This document shows, piece by piece, positions 34,678 through 42,452 of a stretch of 64,000 nucleotides of DNA. The notes under the pieces were generated by a model, which saw only the letters and a program-made list of their open reading frames with translations, was not told the origin of the DNA and did no database searches. Position numbers and translations under genes: made by a program. The stretch lies in contig NZ_CP055156.1 of the NCBI RefSeq assembly GCF_014217805.1, positions 434,001 through 498,000 of the forward strand, written 5' to 3'. How positions within the stretch are numbered: the stretch's first letter is position 1; every line of letters starts with the position of its first letter. Source of the DNA: Adhaeribacter swui (lineage in GTDB: Bacteria; Bacteroidota; Bacteroidia; Cytophagales; Hymenobacteraceae).

Positions 34678-36353
34678 ATGTTATCTATAGCCCCGAAGCG
34701 TACGTGTTTTTTGTTGTTTTTGGTATTAGCTTACGCTTGTTCTTTTTCAGGAAAGCTGCTGGCGCAGGCATTACCCGACCTTAAAAAGTTGGATGCTTAT
34801 TACGAGAAAGCCCGCAAAGACTGGAACGTACCCGGTATGGCGATTGCCATTGTAAAAAACGATTCCATGATTTTTGCCAAAGGCTATGGCGTGTTAAATG
34901 CCAAAACCGGCGGCCAGGTAAACAGCAACACCTTATTTGGCATTGCCTCCAACACCAAAGCTTTTACGGCGGCGGCTTTGGGCATTCTGGTAGACGAAGG
35001 CAAATTAAACTGGAACGATCCGGTAACAAAATACTTACCTTACTTTCAACTGTATAATCCGTACGTGACGCAAGCCGTTACTATCCGGGATTTGCTAAGC
35101 CACCGGGTAGGATTGCCAACTTATAGCGGCGACTTGTTGTGGTATAACACTACCTACTCACGCGAAGAAATTTTGCGCAGGGCCCGGTTTTTAAAATCTA
35201 CCTATGCTTTCCGGGATGGTTATGGTTATTCCAACATCATGTTTATTGCCGCCGGTCAGGTAATTGAAGCCATCTCGGGCCAGAAGTGGGAAGACTTTAT
35301 CCGGACCCGTTTTTTCCAGCCATTGGGCATGAATCAATCCTACGTTTCGGTGGGAGAATTAAAAGACAAACCCAATCAGGCTTCGCCGCACGGTTTTAAC
35401 GCCAACCAACAACCCGTACCCGTTTTTTCCAGCCATTGGGCATGAATCAATCCTACGTTTCGGTGGGAGAATTAAAAGACAAACCCAATCAGGCTTCGCC
35501 GCACGGTTTTAACGCCAACCAACAACCCGTACCCACCACTTTTACCCCTTGGGATGCCTGGAACCCCGCCGCTGGTATTTTTACTTCGGTTAGCCAACAT
35601 GCCCAATGGATTCGGTTGCAGTTAAACCGCGGTACATATAAAGGCAAGCGCATCTTCAGCGAAGCTGTTTCCCGCGACATGTGGGCGCCGGTTCAACCCA
35701 TTCCTATAAGCAAAGAAGCCGAAGTAATCTCGCCTTCCACGCATTTCTCGGCCACCGGTTTAGGTTGGTTTTTAACCGATTATCAAGGCCGGAAAATAGT
35801 AGCGCATGGCGGTGGCCACGAAGGCATGAACTCACGGGTAGTGTTGGTGCCGGAAGAAAATTTGAGCATGGTAATTTTAACCAATAGTATGAGCAGCATC
35901 ATGACTCCTTTGGCGAATCAAACCCTGGATGCCTTTTTAAAAACCCCGGATTCCCGCGATTGGAGCCAGTTTTACTTAGCTGCTAAAAACAAAGCGGCGC
36001 CAGTTAATCAAAATACCAAAAATAAAACCGAAGTCCCGGCTAAAAACCAGTTACCCATTTCTTTAGCGGCCTATACCGGCACCTACAACAGCCCTTTGTA
36101 CGGCGATGCTACCGTAACCCTCACGAACAATAAACTGCAATTGCAACTGGTGGCAGCACCCACTCTAAACGGCAGCTTATCGCCCTGGCAGACCCACATT
36201 TTCGATTTGGATTGGAAAACCGATTATGCTTTGCTTACCCCTACCCGGGTCCGGTTTTTACCTGGCCCAGATGGCAGTATAACCGACATGCGCCTGGATG
36301 CGAATAACCCGGACTTTATTTTCGCGGAGCTGGAATTTAAAAAAGTAAAGTAA
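34678..36353 (+). pseudogene. Serine hydrolase (beta-lactamase family) broken by a 113-bp tandem duplication
   Basis: This locus encoded a class-C beta-lactamase-type serine hydrolase. The first frame (34678-35445, 255 residues) has a signal peptide, S91xxK94 (SNTK) and Y184-S-N. It then runs into a stop. The rest of the protein, including the HGG motif (KIVAHGGGHEG) and a C-terminal DUF3471-like domain, is in another frame from about 35436. The break is an exact tandem repeat: bases 35305-35421 recur at 35418-35534, offset 113 bp. Deleting one 113-bp copy leaves 1563 bp, 521 codons including the stop, in one frame. The locus is therefore interrupted in this sequence, either truly, reversibly or through an assembly error. 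Confidence 0.9.
35305..35534 (+). repeat. 113-bp direct tandem duplication inside the serine hydrolase gene
   Basis: Two copies, offset by 113 bp, are identical over 117 bp, the extra 4 bp being ACCC shared at the junctions. The size is not a multiple of three, so it shifts the frame. The ACCC microhomology at both ends fits slippage or a microhomology-mediated duplication. Confidence 0.95.
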
Positions 36354-36502: not shown

Positions 36503-37627
36503 TTACTTACTGCGGTGAAGCTTATAAAAAACAATGGCGTTTTCGTCGAGCTTTTTTACTTGTTTGTTTTTTTCGTCGACCAGATTAATCAAGCCTTGAT
36601 TTTTTAAATTATCAAAAGCCTGCAGGTAATTTAATTTGCGGTAAGGTGTGCCAATTACGTGTTCTTCGTAAATCTCCTGAATGGTGCTGTAATGAAAACG
36701 GCTTCGACTATTCGCTAGTTCTTCCACCAAATTTTCCTGGCAATACGGGTGCAGGTACCGGAAAAACTCAGGCAACTCCACGGGTTGCGGTTTTTGGTTT
36801 ACCTGAAATAAAGGCACGCCATCGGCTTGGTAATCGCTGTGCTGCTCCAGTATTTCGCGGAATTGAAAATACAAAGGTTTATTCTTAGACGCTACCATTA
36901 AATAATACTGCAACTGATCTTTCCCGGGTAAATTAATCCGCAATGTCGCACAATTATAGTTTTGGTCGCGCAGGGCATTTTCCAAGGCTTCCACGCTTTT
37001 TTGCTCCCGTTTGCGCAGGTTTGTTTCTTGCTGCAACATTTGTTTTAATGGCTCCCACCGGGCACCAAACAGTTCCGCGAATAGGCTTTTTTCTTTTCCC
37101 GGGGTAGTAGCGGCTTTTAACTTGTTCAAATTAAACAACAACCACAAATCGGTATGCGCGCCGTTTAAAGCTTTTAGTAGTAGTTCCTGCGCGTAAGCTG
37201 CGCCAAAAGGGTCGGCGGCCAATAAAGTTGCTGTTGTATCTGAAAAGGTAAATGTTGCTTCGGCTTCGGGTAAGTGAATAGGTAAATTTTTCAACGCAGC
37301 AAAAAAAGGCTGATCTTCTAAATCAAGCTTTAACTTGTCAGAAGCCCCTTTGGCCGCGGCGTAAAAATACGTTTGCAACGATTCGTTTAGCTCGGGTAAA
37401 GTTTCATGGGCATTTACTACGGTTTGCAAAATAGTTGCGGGCGAAACATCTTCCGGGTTACCGGCTCCAGCCAACAAATCCAGATATTGCAGATTATAAA
37501 TTTTTAAATTTGGTTGCTGGAGGTAAAAAGAATACCACGTATTAAAACAGGATAGTAAAATTTCTGATTTAATCTCGGCGGCGGTGCGCTTTTGCTTGAA
37601 GAAAGAATTGGTTTCGGTAACAGGCAT
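36503..37627 (-). CDS. Three-Cys-motif partner (TcmP)-like protein
   Basis: This 374-residue cytosolic protein resembles TcmP, a family found next to radical-SAM-like phage Gp37/Gp68 (DUF5131) proteins. Family-like motifs are YLDLLAGAGNPEDVSPA near the N-terminus, LAADPFGAAYAQELL followed by DLWLLFNLNKL in the middle, and YYLMVASKNKPLYFQF after that. The C-terminus (TPYRKLNYLQAFDNLKNQGLINL) resembles a winged-helix segment. The first part looks methyltransferase-like (Rossmann), but the function is unknown. No partner gene lies beside it; its neighbours are the broken hydrolase and ettA. I recognise the family by pattern only. Confidence 0.65.
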   Translation of the reverse strand: MPVTETNSFFKQKRTAAEIKSEILLSCFNTWYSFYLQQPNLKIYNLQYLDLLAGAGNPEDVSPATILQTVVNAHETLPELNESLQTYFYAAAKGASDKLKLDLEDQPFFAALKNLPIHLPEAEATFTFSDTTATLLAADPFGAAYAQELLLKALNGAHTDLWLLFNLNKLKAATTPGKEKSLFAELFGARWEPLKQMLQQETNLRKREQKSVEALENALRDQNYNCATLRINLPGKDQLQYYLMVASKNKPLYFQFREILEQHSDYQADGVPLFQVNQKPQPVELPEFFRYLHPYCQENLVEELANSRSRFHYSTIQEIYEEHVIGTPYRKLNYLQAFDNLKNQGLINLVDEKNKQVKKLDENAIVFYKLHRSK

Positions 37628-41623: not shown

Positions 41624-41722
41624 AATTAATTAGAAATTAGAAATTAGAAATTAGAAATTATGAATTAGAAATTAAAAATTAGTGATCCTTATTTCTAATT
41701 TCTAATTCATAATTTCTAATTA
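41624..41722 (+). repeat. Heptamer repeats and a 31-bp near-perfect hairpin
   Basis: Four or so tandem copies of AAATTAG (about 41629-41660) lead into a large inverted repeat. Arm 41649-41679 pairs with arm 41691-41721 with one mismatch around an 11-nt loop. The right arm ends 5 nt before the ATPase start codon. It could act as a terminator for the DUF2795 gene or shield the ATPase start. Confidence 0.8.
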
Positions 41723-41726
41723 TAAA

Positions 41727-42452
41727 ATGTTAGAAGTTAAAGGCTTGGTTGCCGGATACGAGCATCGTGTGCTCATCCGCAACCTTTTTTTTTCGGTGCC
41801 CGAACCAGCATTGGTAGCTATTGTGGGCCATAATGGCGGCGGCAAAAGCACTTTTTTTAAAATTTTAACCGGGCAGTTGCCTTATCAACAAGGCGAAGTG
41901 CGGATTCAGGGTCGTAATCTGCAAGGTTTATCCCGCCGGAGTGCTACGGGTTTATTATCGTACCTGCCGCAAAAAAATACCGTTTCTTTTCCCATTCCCG
42001 TGCGCGACCTGGTGGTTATGGGCTTACTCCGGAAAAAGCATTTTCTGGAAAATTACAGCGCCACCGACTACCGCCAGGTAGATGCGCTACTGGAAACACT
42101 GGAGATAACCCACCTGGCGCACCGCGATTTTACGCAGCTCTCCGGCGGCGAACAGCAACTGGTGTGGCTAGCGCAGTTAATGCTGCAAGATACCCGCCTG
42201 TGTTTACTGGACGAACCTACCCAGCAACTGGATATTTACCACCGCAAAAAAGTATTTGAGCTGATTGCCGGTTGGGTAAGCCAGCAGCAAAAAACCGTAT
42301 TGTGCATTACCCACGATTTACAAAACTTATACGGGTACTCCGGCTATATTCTAAATCTTTCTAAACCCCAGCCCCACCTGGAAATACTAAGCCCCGAAAC
42401 CATTGAGCAGAACATTGCTTTTTTAGAGCAAAAGCCAGTGCTGAGTTACTGA
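41727..42452 (+). CDS. ABC transporter ATP-binding protein, FecE/BtuD type, orphan
   Basis: This 241-residue ATPase has Walker A GHNGGGKSTFFK, signature LSGGEQQLVWLAQ, Walker B RLCLLDEPTQQLD and the switch His (CITHD). The region RDLVVMGLLRKKHF is typical of ATPases that work with FecCD/BtuCD-type permeases for iron-siderophore, heme or cobalamin uptake. No permease or periplasmic binding protein is nearby, so the partner is encoded elsewhere. A hairpin abuts the start codon. It converges with the GDPD gene 33 bp away, with no clear terminator between them. Confidence 0.88.
   Translation: MLEVKGLVAGYEHRVLIRNLFFSVPEPALVAIVGHNGGGKSTFFKILTGQLPYQQGEVRIQGRNLQGLSRRSATGLLSYLPQKNTVSFPIPVRDLVVMGLLRKKHFLENYSATDYRQVDALLETLEITHLAHRDFTQLSGGEQQLVWLAQLMLQDTRLCLLDEPTQQLDIYHRKKVFELIAGWVSQQQKTVLCITHDLQNLYGYSGYILNLSKPQPHLEILSPETIEQNIAFLEQKPVLSY

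Follow-up and report, generated by a model that had tools for sequence, protein, structure and literature searches.

A probably recent, exact 113-bp tandem duplication interrupts a serine hydrolase gene in Adhaeribacter swui

We analyzed a stretch of 64,000 nucleotides of Adhaeribacter swui (contig NZ_CP055156.1, bases 434,001–498,000), referred to as the window, in which a gene of the PF00144 serine hydrolase family is distributed over two overlapping open reading frames (ORFs). Around the break a 113-bp unit occurs twice in direct succession. The features of the locus, in window positions, are:

34678–35445, plus strand: N-terminal part of the serine hydrolase, ORF of 255 amino acids, PF00144 with 180.3 bits at a cut-off of 27
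35305–35417, plus strand: repeat unit, copy 1 (113 bp), in the native reading frame (period comparison and Tandem Repeats Finder)
35418–35530, plus strand: repeat unit, copy 2 (113 bp), translated in a shifted frame as part of the upstream ORF and in the native frame as part of the downstream ORF
35436–36353, plus strand: C-terminal part of the serine hydrolase, open from TTG 35436 or ATG 35442
35442–35445, plus strand: ATGA, in which the ATG of the downstream frame, coding for the Met of an LGM stretch, overlaps the stop of the upstream ORF
35531–35534, plus strand: third ACCC, the 4-bp border microhomology (period comparison)

The upstream ORF covers positions 2–203 of the 329 positions of the PF00144 profile, carries the motifs SNTK (residue 91) and YSN (residue 184), and has a hydrophobic leader as judged by inspection. 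Its last codons lie within copy 2 in the wrong frame and run up to the TGA 35443–35445. The downstream ORF reaches 47.2 bits for PF00144 (cut-off 27, profile positions 177–317), followed by DUF3471 with 59.1 bits (cut-off 29.3), and contains an HGGG motif starting at base 35805. Both hydrolase parts, and DUF3471 too, score above Pfam's gathering threshold. Enzymes of the PF00144 family are expected to carry SxxK, YxN and a third motif, here HGG, within one polypeptide. At this locus SNTK and YSN are found in ORF 34678–35445 and HGGG in ORF 35436–36353, which agrees with the frame split described in the initial annotation. The distance from the first start to the last stop is 1676 bases. Subtracting one unit leaves 1563 bases or 521 × 3, and the single frame of 521 codons that had been predicted for a one-copy gene is confirmed in this purely arithmetic sense.

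The solved chain nearest by sequence is 2qmi_A, a 'Pbp related beta-lactamase' (N part, E 2.5e-26). Domain and motif order are shared with the PF00144/DUF3471 serine hydrolases including this chain, but the gene in the window is interrupted. We do not call the hydrolase a beta-lactamase, since with the curated class C beta-lactamase model NF033085 the N part scores 80.3 bits and the C part 18.8 bits, each scored alone, far under the cut-off of 415; assignment to class C was rejected on the same scores. The N part gave 13 matches in this genome at E ≤ 0.001, two of them the gene itself and two belonging to one other frame, from which we count about ten other putative genes of the superfamily.

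Direct comparison showed that 35305–35421 is identical to 35418–35534, an exact match of 117 bases at a period of 113, with zero differences between the 113-base units 35305–35417 and 35418–35530. Tandem Repeats Finder reports the array at 35301–35534 with a period of 113 and a score of 461. ACCC is present at three borders of the repeat (35305–35308, 35418–35421 and 35531–35534), and the similarity of the borders extends over 8 bases with one mismatch (CCGgACCC/CCGtACCC). The exact repeat with ACCC at all borders, as first described, is therefore reproduced in full. A match of 117 identical bases rules out a chance repeat. A mobile element was rejected as well: the unit is ordinary coding sequence, the 230-base repeat stretch matches the genome in one place, and two congeners align along the unit. 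We also scanned for exact tandem duplications with periods of 20–1000; because the window was picked for its repeat, the resulting counts serve as a comparison and not as a rate. No exact tandem duplication besides the 113-bp one was found in the 64-kb window, and there was none in 38 further stretches of the same genome (760 kb) and none in 28 loci from the genus search (124 kb). The loci of 80 relatives (790 kb) contained two, with periods of 21 and 22.

A repeat of another type was noticed further downstream. About eight AATTAGA heptamers occupy 41628–41682. They are followed by the same pattern in inverted orientation, which extends to about 41725 and immediately precedes an ABC-ATPase ORF at 41727. 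A 12-mer of this pattern has 8 matches in the window at 0.08 expected, and a 19-base form has 8 partly overlapping matches in 5 places of the genome, with 0 for the reversed control. A comparable array is present in the congener G005 close to the equivalent position (L137:15120–15164). The unit was not listed in the tandem-repeat scans of the stretches from congeners G003 and G004, and a short DNA match persists in G004. As a length-variable repeat, the AATTAGA array is of a commoner type than the 113-bp duplication.

As in microhomology-mediated tandem duplications, an identical short sequence (ACCC) stands at both ends of the 113-bp unit. In the window, 2.2% of random junctions with a comparable period share 4 bp or more at their borders, so that the 4-bp borders are suggestive of slippage or microhomology-mediated duplication and do not prove it; the origin initially proposed from ACCC fits at this strength. 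Single-strand folding of the region was not better than that of shuffled sequences (z +1.37, with 185 of 200 shuffles folding at least as well), and hairpin-driven slippage was rejected for this reason. Among the literature matches listed on microhomology or reversible tandem duplications, most dealt with fungi and human cancer.

We compared the locus with 82 related loci, comprising the best 80 of 122 relatives from a genome scan and two congeners, with one genome per species. Both parts of the hydrolase lie in one open frame at 80 of the 82 loci, and no internal exact tandem duplication (periods 10–400) was found in these 80. The two exceptions are a locus that stops at a contig edge, where no C part was found (L075), and a locus with one in-frame stop (L082). 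The latter belongs to an Ekhidna metagenome-assembled genome (5001–6137, with the stop at codon 183 of the matched region) and could be another loss of the hydrolase gene or a sequencing error. In the congeners G003 and G005 the hydrolase is intact and single-copy with 523 and 530 codons, the flanking genes and their order are the same as in the window, and both window copies map onto one single-copy stretch. At E ≤ 1e-80 the C part is matched in 64 of 204 family genomes, a set that probably overlaps with the 82 loci and is not independent of them. The open frame comprises 517–648 codons in 63 of these 64 genomes, and the window genome alone has a shorter one of 317. Among named genomes the closest relatives of the gene are found in Pontibacter and Rufibacter. 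A small contig of the window genome matches a plasmid of Adhaeribacter radiodurans at 98.8% over its first 6 kb, in keeping with the genus Adhaeribacter (Hymenobacteraceae), which a plasmid match would not prove by itself. The duplicated state was seen neither in the frames scanned at the 82 loci (L075 and L082 only in part) nor, judging by the open frame, in the 63 other matching family genomes. This comparison with close relatives, which the initial annotation had proposed, yields a single-copy gene throughout the readable frames, and by this evidence the duplication is private and derived, with the single copy as the ancestral state.

The same comparison bears on whether the break is real. 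If the unit were single in the cell and had been doubled during assembly, a gene otherwise without clear decay would be expected, and the one-frame genes of the 63 other matching family genomes agree with this as well. However, the site is located at base 469,305 of a contig of 5,968,113 bases, far from its ends, and the assembly is 6.2 Mb in 3 contigs and 100% complete. Homology of 4 bp is insufficient for usual assemblers to misjoin overlaps, and the border homology is therefore too short for such an error. A general assembly fault should also give more cases, while the 760 kb of the same genome gave none. We consider an assembly or sequencing artefact unlikely.

We next turned to the state of the two halves. 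Against the two congeners dN/dS was 0.10 and 0.06 for the N part and 0.16 and 0.11 for the C part, values that are rough because dS is saturated at 1.5–2.3. Values from six more distant orthologs were left out, as in five of these no estimate could be obtained for one or both parts. Between the intact congeners G003 and G005 the whole gene gives a lower dN/dS of 0.06, and the C part may have undergone a slight relaxation. Mean identity to 43 outgroup orthologs is 0.684 for the N part compared to 0.677 and 0.664 for the intact congeners, and 0.637 for the C part compared to 0.609 and 0.605. Clear decay was thus seen in neither half by dN/dS or outgroup identity, and an old pseudogene was rejected. 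With identical copies and halves free of clear decay, the duplication is young by these sequence measures.

Termination and reinitiation at the overlap of the ORF1 stop with the ORF2 ATG (ATGA, 35442–35445) might yield two fragments that assemble into a working enzyme; the two parts overlap in sequence and jointly hold all three motifs. However, 63 of 79 mapped relatives also have ATGA at this Met codon, and the gene is a single frame in 80 of 82. The tetranucleotide therefore predates the duplication and its overlap with the stop is probably incidental, which led us to reject an evolved split gene with translational coupling. By inspection the leader is located on the N part alone, so that the parts would sit in different compartments; with the C part lacking a leader, an exported enzyme that works as two chains is unlikely. 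Altogether we regard a functional split enzyme as highly improbable.

The distribution of the gene within the genus was determined in eight genomes. The hydrolase gene was found in three of them and not in the other five, one of which is only 78% complete. Among these five, the syntenic place was inspected in G004, the congener nearest by its flanking proteins (93% and 98% identical), and the interval between the conserved neighbors contained no significant hydrolase match. Since the gene is patchy and missing at the syntenic place of G004, we regard it as accessory, and no particular cause has to be invoked for its mutational loss.

Some observations concern the surroundings. The hydrolase place in G004 (L158 3818–4587, minus strand) is occupied by an inward-rectifier potassium-channel-like gene with PF17655 in an ORF of 200 amino acids. 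This gene may be interrupted as well, since the same strand carries another ORF of 123 amino acids that overlaps the first and has no Pfam match. In the window, the neighboring gene at 36503–37627 (minus strand, 374 amino acids) is 44–75% identical to its counterparts in three congeners, and the two genes beyond it are 92–98% identical across congeners. Its product is fast-evolving, and its sole match, GMT-wHTH, is below the cut-off.

Taken together, we think it likely that the locus carries a recent and ordinary loss-of-function tandem duplication, that the loss is probably tolerated, and that collapse of the repeat is a by-product instead of a selected switch. The initial annotation had listed a recent mutation as an alternative, which is the better reading given the intact, single-copy relatives. 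During replication or repair, a nascent strand may have mispaired between short similar stretches about 113 bp apart, either ACCC or CCGnACCC with one mismatch, and 113 bp would have been copied twice. As 113 cannot be divided by three, translation would shift out of the native frame within copy 2 and end at 35443–35445. The truncated product would keep SNTK and YSN and be devoid of the HGG motif and the C-terminal domain, presumably with loss of hydrolase activity. Loss of the gene is probably tolerated, given its accessory status in the genus and the roughly ten further superfamily members encoded in the genome. The exact tandem repeat would be expected to collapse at a low but measurable rate as a by-product. 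In a single genome, a fixed mutation and one variant from a mixed population look the same.

Gain and loss of the second 113-bp copy could in principle switch the hydrolase between off and on, with selection maintaining the rate. The repeat is exact, its unit shifts the frame, and a frame-shifting repeat inside a reading frame is what phase-variable loci have. The gene is otherwise intact and apparently under purifying selection, and pneumococcal capsule genes are cited in PMC4022640 as phase-varying by spontaneous duplications located in the frame. A selected switch should show in relatives, yet neither the repeat nor its substrate is kept there. ACCC at both borders was found in 0 of the 74 mappable relatives (of 82), and the corresponding borders in the two congeners read ACGC/ACCA and ACTC/GCCA; a conserved slippage substrate was rejected accordingly. 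The borders are 113 bases apart in 38 of the 74 mappable loci, and in the remainder the spacing departs from this by multiples of three. The duplicated state is absent from the relatives examined (82 loci, 63 family genomes) and the gene is patchy in the genus (3 of 8 genomes). A second state was not seen, and one genome cannot show two. The case for a contingency switch is therefore weak and we judge it very unlikely.

Collapse to one copy is likely to occur at some rate, as would be expected whenever some 100 bp are repeated exactly in tandem. Tandem repeats of 101 bp in E. coli were deleted at high frequency and RecA was not needed, according to PMC8378479. Since collapse is generic to exact tandem repeats it is no evidence of a switch. 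Of the reversible on/off switch suggested initially, reversibility thus stands as plausible in the light of the E. coli repeats, and the contingency switch is not supported, with 0 of 74 borders and no duplicated relative among those examined.

Several known systems resemble the locus in part. In pneumococcus, duplications in the type 3 locus, cap8E and tts were tied to phase variation (Waite 2001, 2003, cited in PMC4022640). The likeness lies in a sequence duplication inside a reading frame; there, a surface product is reported to phase-vary, whereas here one state of an accessory hydrolase is known from one genome's sequence. For the tetranucleotide repeat in icaC of Staphylococcus aureus, PMC4117637 reports RecA-independent, reversible changes in repeat number. 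The frame shift through a change in repeat number is common to both, but icaC has a pre-existing array of short repeats with several observed states, in contrast to a one-off 113-bp duplication without an array in relatives. The tetA repeats in E. coli (PMC8378479) are adjacent direct repeats of nearly equal length with the same generic collapse; they belong to an engineered plasmid assay and not to a natural switch.

A tandem-duplication knockout of this sort is an already known kind of event, and the present case is a further instance. If collapse were frequent and selected, duplication-based phase variation would be extended to soil Bacteroidota, and nothing here points in that direction. 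That a soil bacterium of this phylum phase-varies an exported serine hydrolase by a long tandem duplication, beyond the pathogens cited for it, appears to us very improbable indeed. Among the literature matches listed on tandem duplication, phase variation and the beta-lactamase family there was no work on Adhaeribacter. In practical terms, gene callers may give two genes where relatives have one, and exact tandem duplications should not be termed contingency loci without relatives or reads. The locus would represent a clean natural case of a very young and potentially reversible gene knockout.
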